A stretch of 64,000 nucleotides of DNA from Hexactinellida sp. DTS-2022. Taxonomy: Eukaryota > Porifera > Hexactinellida. Location: the NCBI GenBank assembly GCA_028753945.1, contig JAPNXP010000001.1, positions 11,894,501 to 11,958,500 on the forward strand, written 5' to 3'. Of this stretch, positions 3,057-60,565 are shown piece after piece. The first letter of the stretch is position 1. Each line of letters starts with the position of its first letter. Below the pieces are notes generated by a model that saw only the letters and a list, made by a program, of their open reading frames with translations, was not told the origin of the DNA and did not search any database. Position numbers and translations under genes: made by a program.

Positions 3057-4681
3057 CATGGCCTACTATACATGTATTATACGGCTAGATAAGTCAAGTA
3101 TTTGCCATTTATTTCCAGGCCAGTGTTTACTTTCTAATTGCTCGTAAAATAAATTACCTATTGTCATGGAATAAACTGAACTTAGGTTTTCAAATACGCT
3201 GGAAACATCTAAAATACTTTTGAGAATGATTTCTCATCGGATTTAACCACAATGACGTAATCAAATATACATACCCATATATGGCAATGATGTTAAATAA
3301 ATGTTAATTTATTAGCTAATTTGAGAGTCTAACTTTGCCGTTTTTATCCTTATGCATTTTTCTTGTTAAAAACTAACTACAGTAACAAATTATGTCATTC
3401 CTTTCACTCAAATTCTTTTCAAACGTCAATGTAAGTAAATAATTATACTATTGTTATCAAACCATATGTTTTGTATTTTTTGAAATCTATATTATTAAAT
3501 CTCGATTGTTGTTTGTTTGTTTGTGTGTGTGTGTTTGTGTGTTTGTTTGTCCGGATTGTATTAAAGTGATGGGGGAATAGAAACCGCAATTAATATTGGG
3601 ATATAAACTAACTTTCAAATGTTATAATAGGTAAACAAGTATGCTGAACACGAATTTCGCGTTTATAAATTTCTCATATTAATATTTGTTGTTGTTGTTT
3701 ACACAAAATAGGTAAACAAATTAATGAAAATTCAAAATCAACCTAGAAGTTAGCTTCCAACGGGTATTATAGGTAAAGTAGTATGCTGAACACTATTTTC
3801 GCGGTTAAAATTTTCTAATATGAATATGTGTTGTGTTGTTTACACAAAATAGGTAAACAAATTAATGAAAATTCAAAATCAACCTAGAAGTTAGCTTTCA
3901 ACGGGTATTGTAGGTAAACAAGTATGCTGAACACGAATTTCGCGTTTAAATTTTCTAATATGAATATTTGTTGTTGTTGTTGTTGTTGTTGTTTACTCAA
4001 AATAGCTAAACAATTTAATGAAATTTCAAAATCAACCTAGAAGTTAACTTTCAAATAGGTATTATAAGTAAACAAGTGTGCTGAACACGAATTTCGCATT
4101 TATAAAATTCTAATATGAGTATTTGTTGTTGTTGTTGTTTGCACAAATAGGTAAACAAATTAATGAAAATCAAAATCATAACGTCCCTATCTACCATTTC
4201 CATGGTAGAAAATGTGAGGAGTAAGGCCGCACAGCGGCCGTTAACTTGAGGTGCGTAGCACCGATCTGTCGCAAAGCGACCGAGACCGAAGGGCTCGTGT
4301 ATAGTTAAATTTTAATCTAAGTCTTAAAAGTGCTGTTTTACGATGTACATGTTGCCCAGTCAGTTTAATGACCGTTCTTGTGACTTATTTAGCTAATGTT
4401 CACTGAATCTCTACTTCAATCTCCACTTCAAATCTCTACTTCATAATTAGTCTTAATTACCATATATGGGTATGTATATTTTATTACGTCATTGTGGTTA
4501 AATCCGATGAGAAATCATTCTCAAAAGTATTTTAGATGTTTCCAGCGTTTTGAAAACCTAAGTTTAGTTTATTCCATGACAATAGGTAATTTATTTTACG
4601 AACAATTAGAAAGTAAACCCTGGCCTGGAAAAAATATGGCAAATACTTGACTTATCTAGCCGTATAATATAGTAGGCCATG
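3057..4681. mobile_element. P-superfamily-like non-autonomous TIR element
   Basis: TIRs of about 230 bp (3057-3286 and 4463-4681) start CATGGCCTACTATACATG. They are flanked by the 7-bp direct repeat GCACAAC at 3050-3056 and 4682-4688. The right duplicate has the unoccupied site at about 58737-58752. Inside lies a Helentron-like element at 3487-4298. The ends resemble those of the THAP-transposase element at 45420-47790 (CATAGCCTACTCTATATATG). The right end lies 16 nt inside the donor of the 4698-4997 exon, leaving the donor intact. Confidence 0.8.
3487..4298 (+). mobile_element. Helentron-like element nested in P-like TIR element
   Basis: Begins CTATATTATTAAATCTCG, followed by a GTTTGTTTGTGTG stretch, GTCCGGATTGTATTAAAGTG, four degenerate 130-150 bp monomers with TTGTTGTTGTTT runs of varying length, then the GC-rich hairpin end GACCGAAGGGCTCGT. 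Opposite orientation to the copy at 1431-2250. Confidence 0.6.
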
Positions 4682-4697
4682 GCACAACTAAAGATAC

Positions 4698-4997
4698 CTA
4701 TAATGAAATCCAGCATAACAGTAGTATATGTTCTAGTGTTCCCTCCGTTCTGACTAACTACACAGCTGTAGTATCCTGGCTTATCATTAGTTACATAGAG
4801 AGTGCTGACTCCTGTTGTAGCATTAGTTGTAGCAGAGAGAGTAGTACTGACTCCATTTAGATCTGTAAAGCTCCAAGTAACTTGTGGTGTATTTTTAATC
4901 TCTGTTATGCAGTAAAGAGTCGTGTTTCTGTTCAAAAGTGAGTTGTCTTTTAATGGCGTGTAAGTGTTTGGACTGATCTGTTCTCCGAATGGGCTCA
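4698..4997 (-). CDS. Ig-domain exon of left lectin-Ig gene
   Basis: A 300-nt exon with acceptor TATTGTAG at its start and donor ATAG|GTATC at 4698/4697, phase 1 at both ends. The translation is a clear Ig domain. TLYCITE gives the B-strand Cys, VTWSFTDL the core Trp, and GYYSCVVSQNGG the F-strand Tyr-x-Cys, with a final G-strand TYTTVML. It follows the lectin exon and presumably forms an extracellular adhesion module. It is about 90 percent or more identical by eye to 58761-59060. A P-like TIR element was inserted just 16 nt into the downstream intron. Confidence 0.85.
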
Positions 4998-5680
4998 CTA
5001 CAATATAAACACGCTCAACTTCAGATTCTCTTTGTCTCTATACACTCTGTATTTATGGAAATTATAATTTTCTCTATATTAATAACACAATTTTCTGTGT
5101 GTGATCTTGGGTTTATTTGTCCAGAATTAATCGGAAAAACTACGAGTCCCAGAATGCTCAAAAGCAAAATTTGTATTTGTACAGCGATAACGATCTATAT
5201 AGGTTTTATGGTGCAGCTGAAATTATTCAGCTATATATAATACGTATGAGAATTTGAATTTCCCAAACAAATTACATTGTGTACCATTCTTATTAAGCGG
5301 CCTTTATGCGTAGTAGGTTTGAAAAACATTATAATTCTGAACAATTCGCCCTGCAGCCATTATCAATTGAGTTGCGTAGCACGGAATTTAATTAAAGACA
5401 TGTAGTTATCAGACAATAAACACACTGTATTTACTAGATTCACCTTGCAAATAGTACTAATTTAGATTTGATTTTAAAGGTAAAGCTAGCCTAATCATTT
5501 TTTCTACCAAATGTTTAGACATTGATTACAAAAGAATTTTCTAATTACTTGTTCGAAGCTGGTAAAATGTTATTCGTGCTCAAATAATGGAGAGTGTTAC
5601 TTTTGATCCCAAATACATACTCCACTAATTTTGGTACCCACAATTTGGTATATATTTTTTCATTCGAGGGACTGACTGAC

Positions 5681-6070
5681 CTGTTGTGCTACAGAAATAG
5701 CAACCTAGTGTATATTCACATGGTTTATCATTCCAGTATTGGTGTAGCAATATTTCTGTACAATCTTCATTTCCCCCATAATTAGTTGGTTCCCCACGAC
5801 TACCCCACCACTTCCTATAAGTGCTTTCGCTACCATCAGCCCAAACAAAAGTATTCTCTACATCTATGTCATTGAGTCCTATCCAACATTCAATGGCTCC
5901 TGACTTGATGTTGCTCAACATTGTATTCTCTTCGAGAGATGTAACAGTAGCTAGATCTCCTCCCATCGCTATACACATATTTCTAGCATCATGCCAGTTT
6001 ATACCAGAGCTTGTGAAAGAGTTGTAGCATCTACCTTTATCTGAAATTGCAGCACAATCGCTTGAAGGAG
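5681..6070 (-). CDS. C-type lectin domain exon (EPT/WND type)
   Basis: A 390-nt exon with acceptor GTTTGTAG and donor ACAG|GTCAGT, phase 1 at both ends. It joins in frame to the signal-peptide exon at 8256-8319 (G|CT makes Ala). Domain landmarks are CAAISDKGRCYN, the WHDARNMC helix, GGDLATVTS, CWIGLND, WADGSESTYRKW, a GEPTNYGG calcium-site loop, DCTEI, YWND and CEYTLGCYFC. EPT is close to the EPN motif of mannose-type lectins and WND supplies the second calcium-binding stretch, so calcium-dependent sugar binding is predicted. The right paralogue has QPD instead. Confidence 0.88.
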
Positions 6071-6220
6071 CTACAAACAAACGTCCATTTTATATTTGAC
6101 AATTTATTATTATTTCTTCTTTATTATGTCTTCTTATACCACTTAAGCGACACGTTTTGAAGTTGTTTAAGTTAAAAATATCTTCTACAATTATTGTCCA
6201 ACCATTTCTATAAAAATATT

Positions 6221-12192: not shown

Positions 12193-12464
12193 TCTCTTTA
12201 CTATAGCAGGCCTCCTGGTTGATGCTGCGTGTGCGGCATTAAAAGTATTGAAATGTCTCATATAGTATAAGGAGTTATAAGAATATATGTAATGGTGTGT
12301 AATATCATTAATATGACGGAAAAAGTTAAATTAATGTAAATCAGTTGTATTTATAATAGCTGGGACCGTAGGGGATATTATGGGACTGTTACAAGTACAG
12401 AGTACAGAGAGTGTACTGAGAGAGACTGTACATGTATACTCTACAGGAGTGCCTACTGGGGTAT

Positions 12465-12746
12465 CAATGGCGGATCCAGACATGTTGAAAAGGGGGGGCC
12501 CAAGAATTAATGCAAGCGTAGCGAGCAATTTATAAGGGGGTCTGGGGGGTAACCCCTCACATTTTTTTTTAGTTATATACACTCAGAAGTCATTTTAATA
12601 AACGCTAATTTCTTAGCTAATTTGCCATAATTCAAACTTGAGGCTGAATTTTCTTAATTATTTTGTCCATTTCAGCCTAAATTTCAGTCAATTCAGTTTC
12701 GAAGGGGGGGCCCAGGCCCCTTGGGGCCCCCCAGGATCCGCCTCTG
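12465..12746. mobile_element. MITE with CGGATCC ends and 5-bp TSD, nested
   Basis: Starts CAATGGCGGATCCAGA and ends GGATCCGCCTCTG, inside the left arm of the surrounding TIR element. Flanked by GGTAT on each side. The opposite arm of the host palindrome (near 13030-13050) keeps the sequence with a single GGTAT, so the insertion and its 5-bp duplication are confirmed inside the window. Contains GC-rich G7/C7 runs. Confidence 0.75.
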
Positions 12747-12821
12747 GGTATGTAGGTAGCGGCAGTACGGTGTAGTGTAGGAAGACACTGTGGATACGGC
12801 AGTACGGTGGTGCCTAGACAT

Positions 12822-12873
12822 GGTGGTTGAGGGTTACCCTCCTGATGAGTCCTTGTGATAGGACGAAACCACT
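12822..12873 (+). ncRNA. Hammerhead ribozyme, complete core
   Basis: All core nucleotides are present. Helix I is GAGGG(TTA)CCCTC at 12829-12841, followed by CTGATGA at 12842-12848. Helix II is GTCC/GGAC (12849-12852, 12861-12864) with an 8-nt loop, followed by GAAA. Helix III pairs 12822-12827 (GGTGGT) with 12868-12873 (ACCACT) in six pairs, one of them G-T. Self-cleavage is predicted after T12828 (a GUU site). Helix III is the open helix (type III topology). It lies in an insert of about 130 bp within the 12387-13112 TIR element. Similar ribozymes occur in retrozymes and Penelope-like elements; neither context is evident here. Structure is read from sequence; activity is not shown. Confidence 0.85.
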
Positions 12874-13292
12874 CATACAATATGTTATGCCCTGTAAGGT
12901 AGAGGGCTGGTCCATGGTCGTAGCTACCGGAGGCTGGCCGCTATCTTACAATATAATAACCCCCGACATTATATTGTAAGATAGCGGTTTCCACAGTGTC
13001 ATCCTAAACACGATACCGTACTGCCGCTACCTACATACCCCAGTAGGCACTCCTGTAGAGTATACAAGTACAGTCTCTCTCACTACACTCTCTGTACTCT
13101 GTACTTGTAACAGGACTATTGAAAACTCATTGGAAGCTGAAATTTGAATGGTTATAGCTTTAAGGGACTTTGAATTGTTGTTTTCTTTGATACACAATTG
13201 ACACAATTTGATACACAATTGACATATTTAATTAGGCCATAAAACAAGTGTCATGAATATTTCGAAAACTCTGCAATCTGGTTGGTCATGGT

Positions 13293-22409: not shown

Positions 22410-23465
22410 ATGGCATCTGCACTAAGTTTGATTGATATTGAAATTGAATTAATACAAAGCAGCTTACATAGACAGCGAGTTTTTAGAGATCGACTAAACC
22501 CCCTGGATGCATATTCTGACTTTGAGTTTATCACTAGGTACAGAATTACTCAGTATATGTTCCTCGAACTCCTGGAAAGGATTCTACGAAACTAAATCGC
22601 ACCACAGCTCGTTCTTACCCAATTGCTCCAGCTACACAACTAGCAGTAGCTCTACAATTTTTAGCTACCGGGACATTTCAGACGGTAGTCGCATCCGCAC
22701 ATGGGATCTCCCAAATATCTGTATCCAGATGCGTAACTGCTGTATGTGAAGCATTAACAGCTATTGCTCCTACCTATATTCAATTTCCAAATACATCTCG
22801 ACAAAAAGTAATCCAAAGATTCTTCCTCAAAAAATACAAGTTTCCACTAGTTCTCGGTTGTATTGATTGTTCACATGTTTCCGTCCTTGCGCCATCATCG
22901 AATGAGGATATCTATGTTAACCGAAAGGGATTTCATTCTATTAACATACGTACAAGCGATTTGTGACCACGAATTTCACTTCATTAATGCTGTTGTTAAA
23001 TGGCCGGGATGTACTCATGATGCTTTCATATGGCGACAATCAGGCATAAATCAAAAGATAACAACTGGTGAGATCGAAACTGTACATGGGTGGTTCTTGG
23101 GTGATAGTGCTTATGGATTAAAACAAAACCTAATGACTCCTATAACTTCTCCAATTACTCCTGGGCACAGAAGGTATAATCGGGCTTTTCTTAAAGCTCG
23201 CCAAACTATTGAGTGTACCTTCGGAATATGGAAGAGCCGTTGGAGATCAATGGATAAAACAGGAGGAACCCTTTGTTATAGCCTTGAAAAATGTTGCCAA
23301 ATTATATTTGCTACCATGGTGCTGCATAACATGTGTATTAGCCATGGCCTCTTAGCCGATTTTGAAATGTTGATGACTGATCCTATCTCAGATATAGTCC
23401 CACCGGAACCTTCAGAAAATGGATTAATAATGAGAGAATCAATAATATCAGAATTTTTTGCTTAA
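22410..23465 (+). pseudogene. PIF/Harbinger (HARBI1-like) transposase, two frameshifts
   Basis: Starts at an ATG with VFRDRLNPLDAYSDFEFITR, the usual N-terminus of HARBI1-like transposases. It changes frame at about 22592 (a stop after ERILRN) and again near 22960. Between these the frame reads ALQFLATGTFQTV and a helix-turn-helix-like AHGISQISVSRCV. Catalytic triad residues are visible: Asp in GCIDCSH, Asp in GDSAYGL and Glu in TIECTFG, with HDAFIW between. Total about 350 codons, full length for the family. It is convergent with the Myb-like gene at 23614-24423, the normal two-gene plan of Harbinger elements. Two frameshifts make it inactive unless they are sequencing errors. Confidence 0.85.
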
Positions 23466-23613
23466 TTATGCTGTTGTATACTACATTGAATTTATACTAG
23501 TAAAGTATGTAATAGTATAATTACAAAGTTATATTATAGAATACTATTTATTGGAGAACTATTAGCGAACTATCTATCTTTGATTACTTGGTTAATTAAT
23601 TAGTAGAAATCCA

Positions 23614-24423
23614 TTAATAATCGGTAGTAGGAGGATACATTGATGGATGAGGAGGAAAATTCTTCACATAGGGATTTGAAACATAAGACCCGACTGCTGC
23701 TACAGGATGCTCTAAACCTGGCTGGATTAACGCAGCTAACAGTCTGTTTTGGTTCGCGAGTATCTCGGGGATTGTTTCCATCATTATATCCCCAATTCGT
23801 TTCAGGCTGTACTCGATTTTCTCCATTCTATGTTCTATATTCTTCATGCAATCCAATTTCTGCTGTTCTTTTTCGAGGAGAATATGTTTAGTTTGTGTGA
23901 GATCACTTGGTGATAAGCTATGTGAGGAGTATTTTCTCTTGCGATTGGGCAGTACCTCAAACTTCGGCTGGTCATCATCAGTTGAGAAGATTGGACTTAT
24001 TGGCATCTGCTGGTCAGCCTCAATGGAAACTTGAGAGCTGATATCTATTCCAGAAGCAATGCCCTCAAACACTTCTTTGCCCATAATACTTCTAATCTTG
24101 TCCTCCAATAGTGTTAACTCGGCTCCAGGGGGACCTCCGCCAGTTTTATGAATTGAAGCAAGCTTATCGGCGATTAGTGGTTTATGTTTGCTCAAGAGGT
24201 TAGACCACTTTTTAAGTATATCATCTCTAGTTCTTGTTACCCCATGTAGAGATGATAACTTAGAGGCGACTTCCTCCCAAACCAAAGTCTTCTCTTCAAA
24301 GGTAAATGAAGCACCTAAGCTGCCGAATAACTGCGACTTGTTTTCCTGGATTATGTCCACCAAGGAATGAATTTCTTCGGTGGAAAATTTTTTCGAACGG
24401 GTTTTGGATTTTTCGAGGGTCAT
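23614..24423 (-). CDS. Harbinger Myb/SANT-like DNA-binding protein
   Basis: Intact 269-codon frame, ATG at 24423. Residues 1-75 form a Myb/SANT-like trihelix with KKFSTEEIHSLVDII, FTFEEKTLVWEEVASKL and DILKKWSNLLSKHK (two core Trp). Then GGGPPGAELTLLEDKI and a Lys/Glu-rich helical part (LLEKEQQKLDCMKNIEH) that could be a coiled coil. In Harbinger elements this second protein binds the ends and helps the transposase into the nucleus (as NAIF1-like partner of HARBI1). Still open although its transposase is broken. A decayed homologue is at 37826-38514. Confidence 0.82.
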   Translation of the reverse strand: MTLEKSKTRSKKFSTEEIHSLVDIIQENKSQLFGSLGASFTFEEKTLVWEEVASKLSSLHGVTRTRDDILKKWSNLLSKHKPLIADKLASIHKTGGGPPGAELTLLEDKIRSIMGKEVFEGIASGIDISSQVSIEADQQMPISPIFSTDDDQPKFEVLPNRKRKYSSHSLSPSDLTQTKHILLEKEQQKLDCMKNIEHRMEKIEYSLKRIGDIMMETIPEILANQNRLLAALIQPGLEHPVAAVGSYVSNPYVKNFPPHPSMYPPTTDY

Positions 24424-24519
24424 TTGGTTAAGAATCCAATTATGTAATTATTGTTAAATTGTTATTTATATATCCGGTGTTTACATTGTATATGTTCGTT
24501 AGTTGAAGTTAGTTATAAG

Positions 24520-24964: not shown

Positions 24965-25140
24965 TGGGTTTGTAAAAGGTGGAATTGGCAGACGTGATCG
25001 CTCGGTCTCGTAAAATACTCGTACATTTTCGGAGATGTGAAGTTATAAAAAATCCTTAAAATAACCCCTGCCTCAGTAGTACCTGGCGTGGGCACGTCGG
25101 ATAGAGACCAGTGATACAGTGTCCTGTGATCCGCATAGCA

Positions 25141-25190
25141 TAGGTAGAGGGTTACCCTCCTGATGAGTCCCTGTAATGGGACAAAACCTG
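25141..25190 (+). ncRNA. Hammerhead ribozyme with a G12-to-A change
   Basis: Helix I GAGGG(TTA)CCCTC (25147-25159), CTGATGA (25160-25166), helix II GTCCC/GGGAC (25167-25171, 25178-25182), then AAAA where the core needs GAAA. Helix III pairs 25141-25145 (TAGGT) with 25186-25190 (ACCTG), five pairs with one G-T. Predicted site after A25146 (GUA). The missing core G (position G12, the general base in known hammerheads) should abolish cleavage. Same helix I as the ribozyme at 12822-12873. Confidence 0.75.
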
Positions 25191-26705
25191 CCGGTTGACA
25201 GCCCCAACGGGTGTGACGAGCATTGGTGTATAATCCGTACTTCCACACTCGTCGACACCATCAATCCACCAAGCACTAAAAGATAGTGCCTCCACGGAAG
25301 ATGCTGTCGGCACAGGTATTATTTTAGATTTCTTCTTCCATATCCCCTCCACAGATGAGAGTTTCATTACCTAAGAAGTGAAATTTTCAGGATAGGTGTC
25401 TCATGGGTTACACCTGGGCCTGGGGTTACGATTCTGGTTTCATTCTTTTGACACATTTGTATACCTATTAATGCCACAACAGGAACATTAAATAATGCCC
25501 GAATATTGAATTTATATACATTCGTCAGAGAATTTAATTATACACCTTTTCACAGTGTAAGAATTTTCAAAGTGGGCTTAGTATGTGCCACAATTGAGTA
25601 ACTAATTTCCTTTGTTTTCTAACACTGAGTTCAATTGAAAGTGTTACATCTAATTCTATTGTTTCAATTTGTGATGACTATATTGATTCAACTTGTATGA
25701 TCTAGTAGGCATGTATTCTAATTGAAAACTAAGATTCTATATTCCATAACAACGACAGATTGTGTATGTTTCCTTCTGCAAGAATACTCTTGACTTGCAC
25801 ACATAAATAATCTACTGATGTATTTAATTCGAATTAATTTAGTCTTTATTTAAATTATTAATAATTTTAATAATTATTCAATTAATTAGCTAAATGTCAA
25901 TAATCTCAGAAATCAGTGGCGTAAACTTGGGGGGTGCTGGGGGCGCATGACACCCCCATGATCTTCTGTTACCTTGCCAAGACGAAATGCTTGGTAGTGC
26001 CGCTTGTGCTAAGATGTAGAATACCTTATTATAGAAGATTAACCGGAAGAAAATAACGAGGGTTGGGTTTTGTCCAGTCCAAAACCAGTTTTGGACTGGA
26101 GTCACTGGACAGTGGATAAATCCGGTTAAAACCGGATAAAACCAGACTAAACCTCAATGAAACCTTGACGTATTCAGTGGAAGAATGTAATTGCTATTGT
26201 ATCGAGCCAATGCAACAATTTGTGTTTAAAGTTTATTAAACATTAGTATCATGCATATTAGATTGTTCAACGAATGTATTTGTTGATTATATTAGACAAT
26301 ACCTTTATACTCGGTAATGGCATTAGCTATAAAAGTAAAATCCATACACTGTATTTAAAATATTTAATGTTTTGACCACTTTTGTCCAATTTTTATGTTT
26401 AGGACAGGGCGGTTTAAACCATTTGGCCAAAACCTACCAACCCTGGAAATAACGCGATTTGGAGCAAAACATTTTCAAATACATGAAATTAACGCGATTG
26501 AGGGAAGAACATTTTTTTATACATGAAATTAACGCGAATAATGTTTTTTAAAAATTCAAGTTAACGTCATCTAAATTAATGCTGTAATACATTGGTTCTA
26601 TCCACTATCAAATGTCTCTATTTGGTGTAAGTAGGTTTGTGCCATGTTGGCATCCCCATGACCAACCTCGAAGTCTACGCCCCTGTCAGAAATGATACAG
26701 CATAG
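25191..26705. other. Repeat-rich stretch
   Basis: 25255-25330 is a half copy of the GATAGTGCC palindrome family; 25530-25760 a plus-oriented copy of the CATTCGATAGAGAATT repeat. 25905-26130 contains CCAGTTTTGGACTGGA and GGATAAAACC words. No gene recognised. Confidence 0.45.
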
Positions 26706-47906: not shown

Positions 47907-49807
47907 TTATACACTTGATATGACGGGTCCTTTTCTAGGCTTAGGAAGGTTCAAAGGAAGAGAAACTTTTTCTCTCGCAGCGGTATGATACGACACACCT
48001 TGTTGTGATGTGAAAATTGTGTATGTAGGTTCTGACGAGAATAAATATTTCACAAATGGATTCCTGATGGTATATGCAAAGAAGAACACAACACCGATAG
48101 GTCCATTCAATAGTAGGAATAACCACTCCATAACTATAGTCAATGTGTTCAGACGAATGAAATAATTACAGACTGCATTGACAATTAAAATGAACCAGGG
48201 CAGTCCTAGAATAGAGATTAGCACTAGAAATTGTACATATAGTGTTCGGTACTGTAAATAGAAGGCACTACGTGATTCATTAGTTTGGATGAATGACATT
48301 TTATGTGGTTTGATCCTCCAGCAGAGCTTCATGGTGAGGTAGATTAGAGCTAATGCGTTGAGTGCTAACAGTAGCAGAATGGGGCATAGCATACCCCATG
48401 TAGAGTAGGCAGGTGGACCACTAGCCAAAAAACAAGTCGAATTTCGGACCATGGATTCATATTTGACATAATTAATTGCAATATCCGGTAATGCAGCGCA
48501 TAACGTAACAATGCAAGGTAACACAGGAAAACCCCATCCAAATAAGAAGTAAATAATGAAACACCTTAATTGGCCACCGATTCTTTCTTCCCGAAAGAAT
48601 TGTACTATCACAATTCCTATGCAGAAACTCCAAGTAAACACAGCAATCCAAGCGTACTGTGTAACGAGAGAAGCTATGACGCAATAATAGTTGTTCAGTA
48701 CAGCGTATGGGAGAATGAATATGAAGACGCTACATCCCAATGTCAATGCTATGGCATAATTGAAATATATCAAGTTAGGCAGACTACAGAAGAATCTCTT
48801 CCCAGCAAAGCAGAAGAGTATTAAGGAAATAGAAAGTGCTAGAAACGACATCGACAGCAACACAAAACTAAACATTTTAGAAGCTAGGTTTTCTGCTCGT
48901 TCAACTGGACGATTGAAACTGACGATTGCCGCGAATGTAGTGAGATGAGTAGTCGCACATACAATGATAGATTCGTTAAAATTAACTAATTTCAGTCCAG
49001 TTGTATTGATTCCGTTTGTGTCATTGAAAGAAATGCATACAGGCGGTACGATGTCAATGTTTCGGAAACTGTGGGGAAATGAGATGTCGATTGGCTGTAC
49101 TAGCACAAGATTCCCCACGCTGCTTGATTGTGGTAAATGGAAATTGAGTGAAATAAATCCGGTTGTACCAGTCTCGTCAATGACTGCTAGCTTCAGGTTG
49201 TAGGTGATTGAAGAAATGAAGAAAGAAGTTACATTGCCCTGTGTTGCAATCTGATTCAATACAGAAAATGGGATGTATGCAGTTGGGGAGAGTTGGTTTG
49301 AAATATGAGTTATATTCGGAATAATATTAGCAGATTCTAGCTCTACCACATTCACACTTACAATATAAACCTGTATTCTTTCAGATATTATAATTTTAGG
49401 TGCTTGCATTGCTTGTAGCCCTTGTGATACAGTATTTATATAGTTTTCAAACGTAAGAATGAGGGACACGAGTGATGAAGGGATTTGGCTTGATTCCGTG
49501 TTAGTAGAATTTGCTGGTCTATCGCGCACTACTTCACTTATAATAGTGGAAGCTAGAACAATAAGACTGTTGGTTACAGCTTCATCTTGTGCTGTTATTG
49601 GATCAATACTTTTGGTTATTCTTTCAAATTGTTCAATTATATTCATGATCGATTCTATGGTCATTGAATTTGAATTTATTGAATCTATTTGGTTGTTAAT
49701 ATCTGTAATTACTTGACTTGTAACATTGCTAGGTGCTGTAGGAGTAGAATAATATATATTTGAGATACTGTTCGTTGAGGGATGTATGCTGGTCATTGTG
49801 AAGGCAT
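47907..49807 (-). CDS. Adhesion GPCR, terminal exon with GAIN/GPS-like and 7TM
   Basis: Acceptor TTTATTTATTTAG at 49820-49808, phase 1, 633 codons to the stop at 47909-47907. Residues about 1-300: Ser/Thr/Asn-rich helical stretch and GAIN-like beta part (TSFFISSITYNLKLAVID, GFISLNFHLPQ). GPS-like site: PVCISFNDTN ... IIVCATTHLTTFAAIV, with the HL|T cleavage tripeptide. Seven membrane segments follow from FSFVLLSMSFLALSISLIL to WLFLLLNGPIGVVFFFAYTI, with the receptor-like loops WSFCIGIVIVQFF and CFLASGPPAYSTWG. The tail ends ISSV, a possible class I PDZ ligand. Family B2 receptor in the plasma membrane. The GPS is reduced: only two of four cysteines and no Trp. Confidence 0.88.
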
Positions 49808-50212
49808 CTAAATAAATAAACAAAAACACCTCACTTATGCTAATAATATGCATGAGTCAGTTTTATACTCTTCTGTCTTCACAAATAAAGCAGTGCGTGC
49901 ATTGAGTACGGGCGCCTTGCCAAGTTGCCTTAATGATAAAATATTCTTTTTGCATTCCAAACATTTGAACCCTTGACAGAAATTTCATTCATTAAATGTT
50001 ATCCCGCTACCTGACCACACATAGTTCCCAATATATAATAAGGTAAAATCCTTGTACTTTTCTAAGAATTTAAGCCAATTCTCATATTTGAATTCCAACA
50101 AGACTGTTAATACTATAATATTACTAAGTATATGGTATATGTTAACACCATAATCTGTCTAATGTCATGAAGAATCTTTAGACATAGTACAAATAAATGT
50201 TATTACTTTTAC

Positions 50213-58275: not shown

Positions 58276-58760
58276 TTATTATTATTATTATTGCTGTGCC
58301 GACTACTATGTAGTGGCTGCCATGGCCTAGGTATAATTTTGGTAAATATCCTCTCCACACAACAGAACTTGATTAACTGAGTGACTTCTTGACTAATTTT
58401 TGGACACATTTTCATACCTATTTTACATTTCATAACAATATATGGTGATCATTGTTTAATTTCTATTTATTAGATTGAAAATTGAATTGTACACTTTTAG
58501 CAGTGGAAAAAAAAAAAAAAAAAAAAATTGGGCTTAGTATGTGCCATAATTTGGTTTATAATTTCCTGTATTTAAAACATTTTTAGTTCAATCCAAATTG
58601 TTAAATATAATTCTATTGTTTCAAGTGATAATTTTACACCTGTGCTCACAGCATTTCCTTTAGAAGCACTATCACACTTTCCCAAAATATAGTGCTGCCG
58701 AAAAGGTGCCCTGGGCACAGCTGTAATTTTACATTTTTATATATTACAAACTAAAGATAC

Positions 58761-59060
58761 CTATAATGGAATCCAGCATAACAGTAGTATATGTTCTAGT
58801 GTTTCCTCCGTTCTGAGTAACTACACAGCTGTAGTATCCTGGCTTATCACTAGTTACATAGAGAGTGCTGCTTCCTGTTATTGCATTAGTTGTAGCAGAG
58901 AGAGTAGTACTGACTCCATTTAGATCTGTATAACTCCATGTAACTTGTGGTGTGTTTTTAGTCTCTGTTATGCAGTAGAGAGTAGTGTTTCTGTTCAAAA
59001 GTGAGTTGTCTTTTAATGGCGTGTATTTGTTTGGACTGATCTGTTCTCCGAATGGGCTCA
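58761..59060 (-). CDS. Ig-domain exon of right lectin-Ig gene
   Basis: Acceptor TATTTGTTAG, donor ATAG|GTATC, phase 1 both ends, 100 codons. TLYCITE, VTWSYTDL and GYYSCVVTQNGG give the Ig core Cys, Trp and Tyr-x-Cys. Differs from the left copy at few residues. The next exon downstream (left) is not identified; nothing like the 498-854 exon is seen between here and 50.4 kb. Confidence 0.85.
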
Positions 59061-59731
59061 CTAACAAATATAAATACATTCAATCTCAGAAACTCTTATT
59101 CTCTATACACTCTGTATTTTATGAAAATTATAATTTTCTCCTTATTAATAACACAATTTTTCTGTGTGTGATCTTGGGTTTATTTGTCCAGAATTAATCC
59201 GAAAAACTACAAGTTCCAGAATGCTCAAAATTAGTATTTGTACAGCGACAACGATCTATATAGGTTTTATGGTGCAGCTGAAATCATTCAGCTATTAATA
59301 CGTATGAGAATTTGAATTTCCCAAACAAATTACATTGTGTACCATTCTTATTAAGCGGCCTTTATGCGTAATAGGTTTGAAAAACATTCTAATTCTGAAT
59401 AATTCGCCGTGCAGCCATCATCAATTGAGTTTCGTAGCACGGAATTTAATTAAACACATGTACTTATCAGGACAATAAATACCCTGTTAATTACTAGATT
59501 GATTTTGCAAATAGCATTAATTTAGAATTGATTTTATAGGTAAAACATATCATTTTCTCTACCAAAAGAATTGATCACAAAAAGGATTTTCTATTTACTT
59601 GTTCGATGCTGATGAATTATTATTTGTGCTTGAATAATGGAAAGTATTACTTTTGTGTTCCCAAATATACACTCCACTAATCTTGGTACAAACAATTTGG
59701 TGTATAATTTTTATTCGAGGGAATGACTGAC

Positions 59732-60112
59732 CTGTTGTGCTACAGAAATAGCAAACATGTATATATTCACAGTTTAGATCATTCCACTTATTATGCGTTA
59801 ACTCCACACAATTTTCAGCAGTCAGATGATCATCTGGTTGAAAAGTACGCCAGTGTCTATAAGTGCTTTCGCTACCATCTGCCCAAACAAAAGTATTCTC
59901 TACATCTATGTCATTGAGTCCTATCCAACAGTTAGTGACTCCTGGCTTGATGTTGCTCAAAATTGTATTCTCTTCGAGAGATGTAACAGTAGCTAGGTCT
60001 CCTCCCATCGCTATACACATATCTCTAGCATTTTGCCAGTTTATTCCAGAGCTTGCGAAATAGTTATAGCATCTACCTTTATCTGAAATTGCAGCACAAC
60101 CGCTTGAAGGAG
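59732..60112 (-). CDS. C-type lectin domain exon (QPD/WND type)
   Basis: Acceptor TTTGTTTGTAG, donor ACAG|GTCAGT, 127 codons, phase 1 both ends. CAAISDKGRCYN, WQNARDMC, GGDLATVTS, CWIGLND, WADGSESTYRHW, then FQPDDHLTAENCVEL, KWNDLNCEY and VCYFC. QPD is the galactose-type calcium-site motif, with WND completing the site. Predicted to bind galactose-type sugars with calcium. The loop is the region of greatest difference from the left paralogue (EPT), in length as well as sequence. Confidence 0.88.
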
Positions 60113-60565
60113 CTACAAACAAAAATTCCATTTTATATTTGACAATTTATTATTATGTCTTCCTTATTACGTCTTCTTACACCACAAAAGGGACACGTTT
60201 TGAAGTTGTTTAAGTTAAAATATCTTCTACAATTATTGTCCAACAATTTGTATAAAAATATTGGTATTCAGTGTAGAATAAGTTGTCTCAAGGGATCACT
60301 TAAAATGACGCGAACATCGGCATAAAATTTGATTATACAACAATTGTTTGAAGTTAATACCAGTTTAAAATTAGTCTAAAACCACTTAGTATTTCAATTT
60401 TGGACCTTTCAAAATTTACGTAGCGCATCCAGGGTTGGAAAATGTGAGGAAAATGTGACAGAAGTGGCATAGCGGTATGAGGAGTTTGTTCCTGCATTGC
60501 GTAACGAATCTTGCCTATAATTTCATTGGCGACATTACACAATTAGACATTGCTAATTATTATAT

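Follow-up and report, generated by a model that had tools for sequence, protein, structure and literature searches.

A type III hammerhead ribozyme in a palindromic element of a hexactinellid sponge genome, a probable by-product of a non-coding LTR retrozyme

Introduction

A 64,000-nucleotide stretch of Hexactinellida sp. DTS-2022 contig JAPNXP010000001.1 (positions 11,894,501 to 11,958,500, forward strand; hereafter the window, numbered from its first base; GC content 35%) carries a type III hammerhead ribozyme within an element with inverted arms. The initial annotation, made from the letters of the window, placed the ribozyme in an insert of about 130 bp between the arms of a DNA terminal inverted repeat (TIR) element, with no visible retroelement around it, and remarked that a type III layout was not to be expected in an animal. 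The locus raises the question of which kind of mobile element carries such a ribozyme in an animal genome, and how the ribozyme came to lie in a palindrome.

In the literature consulted, the ribozyme-bearing retrotransposons of plants and animals form two separate kinds (PMC4918200, PMC7229834, PMC7761336). In the model for plant LTR retrozymes, the two hammerheads cut the RNA, which is circularised and then copied by a gypsy reverse transcriptase with a tRNA primer (PMC4918200). The retrozymes of animals are described as having hammerheads of type I and no LTRs, primer site or polypurine tract (PMC7229834, PMC7761336), in agreement with the annotation's comment on the type III layout. Animal type III hammerheads are reported in HDV-like agents and insect genomes, and not from LTR elements, in the available part of PMC7936874. 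With good confidence, we interpret the element in the window as the integrated palindromic by-product of a non-autonomous, non-coding LTR retrozyme whose two LTRs each bear a hammerhead of type III.

The ribozyme of the window

Every part of the intact-core type III hammerhead that had been described was found in place (Table 1). Helix III pairs 12822-12827 with 12868-12873, its outermost pair being G-U; the cleavage triplet NUH is GUU, with the predicted cut between 12828 and 12829; and helix I (GAGGG/CCCTC) joins 12829-12833 to 12837-12841 around a UUA loop. The core boxes CTGATGA (12842-12848) and GAAA (12865-12868) follow. Helices I and III were thus as annotated, while helix II, which had been given four pairs, has five (12849-12853/12860-12864). 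With its core, NUH triplet and three helices, of which I and II are closed by loops, the motif belongs to the type III class.

Against the Rfam hammerhead model RF00008, the window copy reaches 47.0 bits (E 4.9e-9, 901 bases searched). This is 1.5 bits short of the gathering score of 48.5, so a default Rfam scan of the window omits it; the covariance-model search proposed as a check therefore returned a match, but one under the threshold. Among the 68 scored genome matches listed, a lower bound that includes neither copy of the window, 64 pass the cut-off, the best with 64.3 bits. Folded alone, the ribozyme has a z-score of -2.2, with 4 of 200 shuffles folding equally well or better, and its minimum-free-energy structure holds the three helices and one additional pair at U17. 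As this energy is unremarkable, the case for the ribozyme stands on its motif and its relatives.

The default scan lists only a second copy, a relic probably of the same superfamily, which over 25141-25257 is 83% identical to locus L073 (C11:14270050-14271050). L073 itself is a convergent hammerhead pair within sequence that, by eye, resembles a non-LTR reverse transcriptase. To judge from the mutation of core G12 to A, the relic is probably inactive. That a mutated copy passes and an intact one fails indicates that the Rfam cut-off is no gauge of activity. A transcript through the window element could, by its sequence, still cut itself, probably slowly; having one ribozyme only, the element cannot release a monomer.

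Table 1. Coordinates of the element, its parts and the hammerhead motifs in the window
Feature	Position	Strand	Remarks
Left target-site duplication GGAC	12383..12386	.	same as 13113-13116; abuts element
Whole element: LTR, hairpin spacer, inverted and internally deleted LTR	12387..13112	+	relatives L002, L004, L069, L070
Left LTR, hammerhead-bearing	12387..12950	+	282 bp minus nested repeat; TGTTACAAG...CTATCTTACA
Nested high-copy repeat, ~282 bp	12465..12746	.	inside left LTR; foreign to retrozyme
Type III hammerhead ribozyme	12822..12873	+	core bases intact; triplet GUU; RF00008 match
Spacer ATATAATAACCCCCGACATTATAT	12951..12974	+	loop part of post-LTR hairpin
Inverted LTR copy	12975..13112	-	without complement of ~12801-12937 (ribozyme segment)
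Right target-site duplication GGAC	13113..13116	.	same as 12383-12386
Second hammerhead relic	25139..25192	+	RF00008 49.8 bits; core G12 = A (GGGACAAAACC)

Hammerhead copies across the genome

A search of the 112-Mb genome for further copies gave 192 matches to the exact core pattern CTGATGAGTCCN{4,12}GGACGAAAC (100 forward, 92 reverse) and none to its reversed control. In the loci fetched, 84 sequences fit the pattern and 75 of them keep helix I; among these 75 compared copies, the cleavage triplet is GTC in 69, and GTT occurs in the window copy alone. The hammerheads are of type III, with a helix III of five to six pairs, rather than the type I of Penelope-like elements and Terminons. One differing hammerhead-like motif (L068, position 2616), with GGCC/GGCC as helix II, apparently lies outside this family.

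The helices covary: across 47 distinct copies, 6 of 16 pairs are changed on both sides and 95.3% of cells are paired, a result matched by 0 of 500 shuffles, with slid registers giving 0-3. Five of 52 distinct rows had been excluded from this set, one for its differing length and four because their helix I is broken or shifted. Most hammerhead loci were detected via the hammerhead itself, which biases any estimate of core conservation, and mismatches were counted in 12 copies chosen otherwise: a DNA-similarity search supplied 16, of which the four nearest the query were excluded. They number 26/648 inside the ribozyme versus 395/3180 in the remaining LTR (Fisher test, p 8e-12, a significance that is overstated because the copies are related).

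An LTR retrozyme family

The relatives of the window element take three forms: solo LTRs, elements with an internal region between two LTRs, and inverted LTR dimers. Many of them have perfect 4-bp duplications, and the view that no retroelement is involved did not survive their inspection. The repeated unit is about 200-330 bp long, starts with TGT and ends with ACA in most subfamilies read, and its ends form short imperfect inverted repeats. One subfamily, with an LTR of 325 bp, is represented by 14 copies of at least 98% identity (rounded), all with sharp ends at identical positions; five belong to a single cluster. Perfect 4-bp duplications flank 17 of its 20 insertions, about 0.08 being expected by chance; the count derives from 24 rows, of which three were dropped with a 5' end not aligned to TG and two are both LTRs of one element. 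The insertions without a perfect duplication are L075, L079 and L089, and the core pattern does not fit L086, L088 and L089, three rows of the 24.

Full-length elements carry direct hammerheads in both LTRs (L092, L060, L074 and L052), as is expected of retrozymes. The 834-bp element L092 is ordered LTR (330), hairpin, internal region (174), polypurine tract, LTR (330), with a hammerhead in each LTR; its direct 332-bp repeat is 99.7% identical, and TACT is duplicated on both sides. Elements L060 and L074 measure 684 bp each and have the duplications CTAC and ATAG, respectively. Ahead of the 3' LTR, a polypurine tract is present in L052 (AAAGGGAAGGTGA), L092 (AAAAAGGGAAGGTGA) and L060 (AAGGGGGGTGA), and no clean tract is seen in L074 (GGGGGTTGA) or L072. 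The cut sites lie 385-504 bp apart. The 504-nt monomer of L092 folds with a z-score of -6.6, and in the minimum-free-energy folds of nine units, judged by eye, a long 3' terminal stem appears in eight and the three hammerhead helices in seven.

A search for a tRNA primer site in the retrozymes L092, L052 and L072 gave no TGG within the 24 nt after the LTR, and the same holds for two gypsy-type elements of the genome, hence for all five elements searched. By plan the elements are LTR retrozymes, though the tRNA primer site listed as a feature of that family is absent from the positions searched.

Several arrangements were recorded alongside. L052 (C1:7627723-7629906) is a cluster of five LTRs, two forward and then three reverse, with internal regions between them; L046 (C1:4511058-4511323) consists of two hammerhead LTRs head to tail, one base apart. 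By eye, the LTRs of several subfamilies, for example that of L036, each hold several copies of the motif GGMAGTACGG, which is possibly a structured RNA repeat.

The element in the window

The terminal inverted repeat reported at this locus is real, with 79 nt at 97% identity; its assignment to a DNA transposon was mistaken. Nor does the ribozyme sit in an insert of 130 bp: the insert seen occupies 12465-12746 and is a distinct repeat, about 282 bp long. This nested repeat alone accounts for 35 of the 40 scored places in the own genome (within query 74-366), at 85-90% identity, and is absent from the family A relatives L002 and L004. It has terminal inverted repeats of its own (GGCGGATCC) and, by eye, a GGGTAT target duplication. 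A perfect 20-nt inverted repeat (12938-12957/12968-12987) comprises the LTR end together with the spacer. The element has one hammerhead and no internal region, hence no polypurine tract. Its inverted repeat is probably a secondary, self-primed form of an LTR element.

The post-LTR hairpin and the inverted dimers

Directly after the LTR of L052, L092, L072 and L049 lies a hairpin whose stem takes in the final LTR nucleotides and which is followed by internal sequence. It folds with a z-score of -9.7 in L092 and in L072, and of -6.0 in L052, the right arm of which was shortened in the query. The stems vary by subfamily yet stay paired (CATAACA/TGTTATG, CGTAACA/TGTTACG). Inside the retrozyme LTR, the longest complement of the post-LTR bases is 5-7 nt.

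In the inverted dimers, the hairpin is followed by an inverted LTR instead of internal sequence, and the L052 cluster holds both contexts. Perfect duplications flank the dimers of the window, L026, L071, L040, L072 and L068 (L069, L070 and L073 stand outside this count), and in all six the inverted copy reaches the terminal bases of the LTR with the duplication next to it. The dimers of L068 and L072 are more complex than two simple arms and have one altered base at their left end, and the duplications of L002 and L004 are imperfect (3/4 and 2/4). Right-arm deletions vary among the copies of family A, as expected, since palindromes are unstable.

One observation constitutes a difficulty for hairpin priming. 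L060 and L074 have in common the loss of the LTR tail and the 5' strand of the hairpin in their 5' LTR, at two sites (C1:9778 and C5:4260) with different duplications, which implies that elements so arranged have moved although the hairpin was incomplete, or have used a different route.

Candidate gypsy-type helpers

The junction pattern AGGGRDGGTGATGTKAY, which spans the polypurine tract and LTR start and was taken from a retrozyme, has six matches in the genome; its reversed control has none. Four matches are retrozymes, three of them in the L052 cluster, and two lie directly behind gypsy-type integrase sequence (L093, L097), so that the exact junction reaches just two retrozyme loci and two others. 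Through this junction the retrozymes share their ends with two Ty3-gypsy-type elements, a label based on domain order and ends rather than phylogeny. The L097 element (C6:3745102-3749961) has 187-bp LTRs at C6:3745102 and C6:3749775 that are 99% identical, an ATGT duplication, and matches to an aspartyl protease (26.3 bits), RVT_1 (101.6 bits) and an H2C2 integrase domain (70.5 bits); L093 has an H2C2 match of 52.7 bits. The rve matches of both are under the cut-off (24.1 bits in L097 and 27.8 in L093, versus 32.6). The L097 integrase has one in-frame stop between frames 2-487 and 491-1495 and that of L093 is scattered among several frames; these copies are therefore not necessarily active.

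The polypurine/LTR junction and the LTR ends are what the L097 element has in common with the retrozymes; a DNA search with its LTR gave seven matches, none at a retrozyme locus. In place of a hairpin of the retrozyme type, it has a Tf1-like complement: 14 nt just past the LTR are perfectly complementary to the LTR interior, compared with a maximum of 12 in 2000 shuffles. The second gypsy-type element, with an LTR of 140 bp, has a 9-nt complement; as 69 of 2000 shuffles also reach 9, self-priming of this element is only suggested. From their sequences, these elements are candidate gypsy-type helpers within the same genome.

Alternative explanations

That the motif is a chance hammerhead-like sequence within an ordinary repeat has a negligible probability. 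Its score under the Rfam cut-off and its ordinary folding energy would fit such a reading, which is refuted in silico by the 192 exact cores against none in the reversed control, the covariation and the excess conservation. Almost as improbable is an artefact of assembly or library preparation. Fold-back artefacts do occur in long-read data; the arms of the older dimers (window, L002, L004), however, have diverged through substitutions and deletions, and those of the window dimer also through the nested repeat, and the duplications differ from dimer to dimer.

The transposon reading of the initial annotation, in its most specific form a DNA transposon with the hammerhead in its terminal inverted repeats, has somewhat more in its favour and is still improbable. 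Ginger-like transposons combine an integrase related to that of gypsy with TGT...ACA ends and duplications of 4 bp. About a dozen other elements share the inverted arms of the window element, the unit ends are short imperfect inverted repeats, and the 4-bp duplications are compatible with such an element. Yet 37 of 51 hammerhead contexts are without an inverted-arm match, L092 has the order LTR, internal region, polypurine tract, LTR, and one element reached through the junction pattern possesses direct LTRs of 187 bp together with protease, reverse transcriptase and integrase sequence. In L091, the one wide inverted pair examined, no open reading frame exceeds 117 amino acids, and no transposase-bearing relative with the same inverted repeats was noticed among the loci read. 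This reading was dropped once the direct elements L092, L060, L074 and L052 had been read.

The most serious competitor, which we nevertheless consider unlikely, accepts the LTR retrozyme and attributes the inverted dimers to DNA-level template switching at the hairpin after insertion. Template switching is especially frequent at hairpins and cruciforms, and some dimers (L052, L068, L072) are complex. In the window, L026, L071, L040 and L072, however, the arm ends at the terminal bases of the LTR and is followed by the duplication, an order that a later rearrangement would not produce repeatedly.

Proposed mechanism

We therefore retain the reading of the window element as a palindromic by-product of an LTR retrozyme. 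The scheme below connects features read from the genome sequence (LTR ends, 4-bp duplications, full-length elements, the gypsy-type polypurine/LTR junction, the post-LTR hairpin and dimers of an LTR, hairpin and inverted LTR) through processes that we infer, namely cleavage, circles and hairpin priming. Two direct hammerheads would cut the transcript to a monomer of 385-504 nt, which would close into a circle, a step made necessary by the removal of the repeated R region on cutting. A gypsy reverse transcriptase may then copy the circle, starting at the hairpin beside the LTR, with plus strands beginning at the polypurine tract, and a gypsy integrase would insert the product. Inverted dimers would arise where a hairpin-ended strand snaps back and copies its own LTR up to the TG end defined by the polypurine tract; such a dimer could be integrated like any pair of LTR ends. 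The window element would be a decayed dimer, in which the triplet changed from C to T, the right arm lost its ribozyme and the left arm received the nested repeat.

The broader proposal, that an animal lineage possesses type III LTR retrozymes self-priming from a hairpin at the LTR edge, with inverted dimers as snap-back products kept in the genome together with their duplications, stands at about an even chance. If true, each dimer would be a direct fossil of priming from a hairpin, a step that is suspected for hairpin-bearing LTR elements and for which the available part of PMC5445492 offers no fitting model. Through the dimers, such priming could then be tested on genome sequence. An LTR kind with type III hammerheads in an animal genome, accompanied by candidate gypsy-type helpers, would close the gap between plant and animal retrozymes and would bear on the origin of viroid-like circles.

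Other features of the window and the genome

Several further features were recorded. At 22538-24447 a DDE_Tnp_4 transposase lies beside a Myb/SANT-like frame on the opposite strand, a pair we take to be Harbinger-like. Immunoglobulin-like and C-type lectin frames form a pair that is duplicated, one copy lying near each end of the window (4606-6089 and 58744-60146; the second immunoglobulin-like frame by eye). An adhesion-GPCR reading of 47907-49853, made by eye, had no Pfam support. As for the host, an animal is indicated by Ets domains, which are known as animal-specific and of which seven genome matches exceed the cut-off (the highest at 127.8 bits), and by the C-type lectin and immunoglobulin domains of the window. 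Against an animal host stands a Wnt search, run without a positive control, which gave no match. A probe with a Hox-type homeodomain found three matches only (best 46%).

Comparison with known systems

Among animal elements, the metazoan non-LTR retrozymes likewise carry hammerheads and are non-autonomous (PMC7229834), but differ in having type I hammerheads in short tandem repeats (PMC7229834, PMC7761336). Penelope-like elements and Terminons also have the ribozyme in terminal repeats, in this case a minimal type I (PMC7229834, PMC7761336). The bivalve TRIM elements are tiny animal LTR elements with internal inverted repeats and, in the available part of the paper, no clear tRNA primer site (PMC6934838); the words hammerhead and ribozyme are absent from the text of that paper. 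No animal LTR retrozyme was recognised by title in the literature searched, which largely excluded subscription papers.

The priming arrangement has its nearest counterpart in the fungal GalEa Copia elements, where a Conserved Hairpin Site after the 5' LTR, touching the last LTR base, replaces the primer site (PMC5445492). GalEa differs in being an autonomous Copia with conserved arms of 9 bp, and neither a ribozyme nor LTR palindromes are mentioned in the available part of the paper; according to its authors, no described model fits the hairpin (PMC5445492). Self-priming elements of the Tf1 type have no tRNA primer site either (PMC5445492, PMC6934838). The candidate helper at C6:3745102 resembles them in its 14-nt post-LTR stretch complementary to its own LTR, while the retrozymes are unlike them, their pairing partner being local, in the hairpin.

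The closest overall likeness is to the plant LTR retrozymes, which are also non-coding, bear a type III hammerhead in both LTRs (each some 330 bp long in Jatropha), have a polypurine tract and 4-bp duplications and occur as solo LTRs too, and which have only the LTR ends, the polypurine tract and little else in common with Ty3-gypsy elements (PMC4918200, PMC7761336). Unlike in the sponge, the plant internal region begins with a tRNA-Met primer site, and the cut sites in Jatropha are about 700-780 bp apart compared with 385-504 bp here (PMC4918200, PMC7761336). The elements described here are set apart from the plant retrozymes by the hairpin at the LTR edge, by the inverted LTR-hairpin-LTR dimers and by their animal host.
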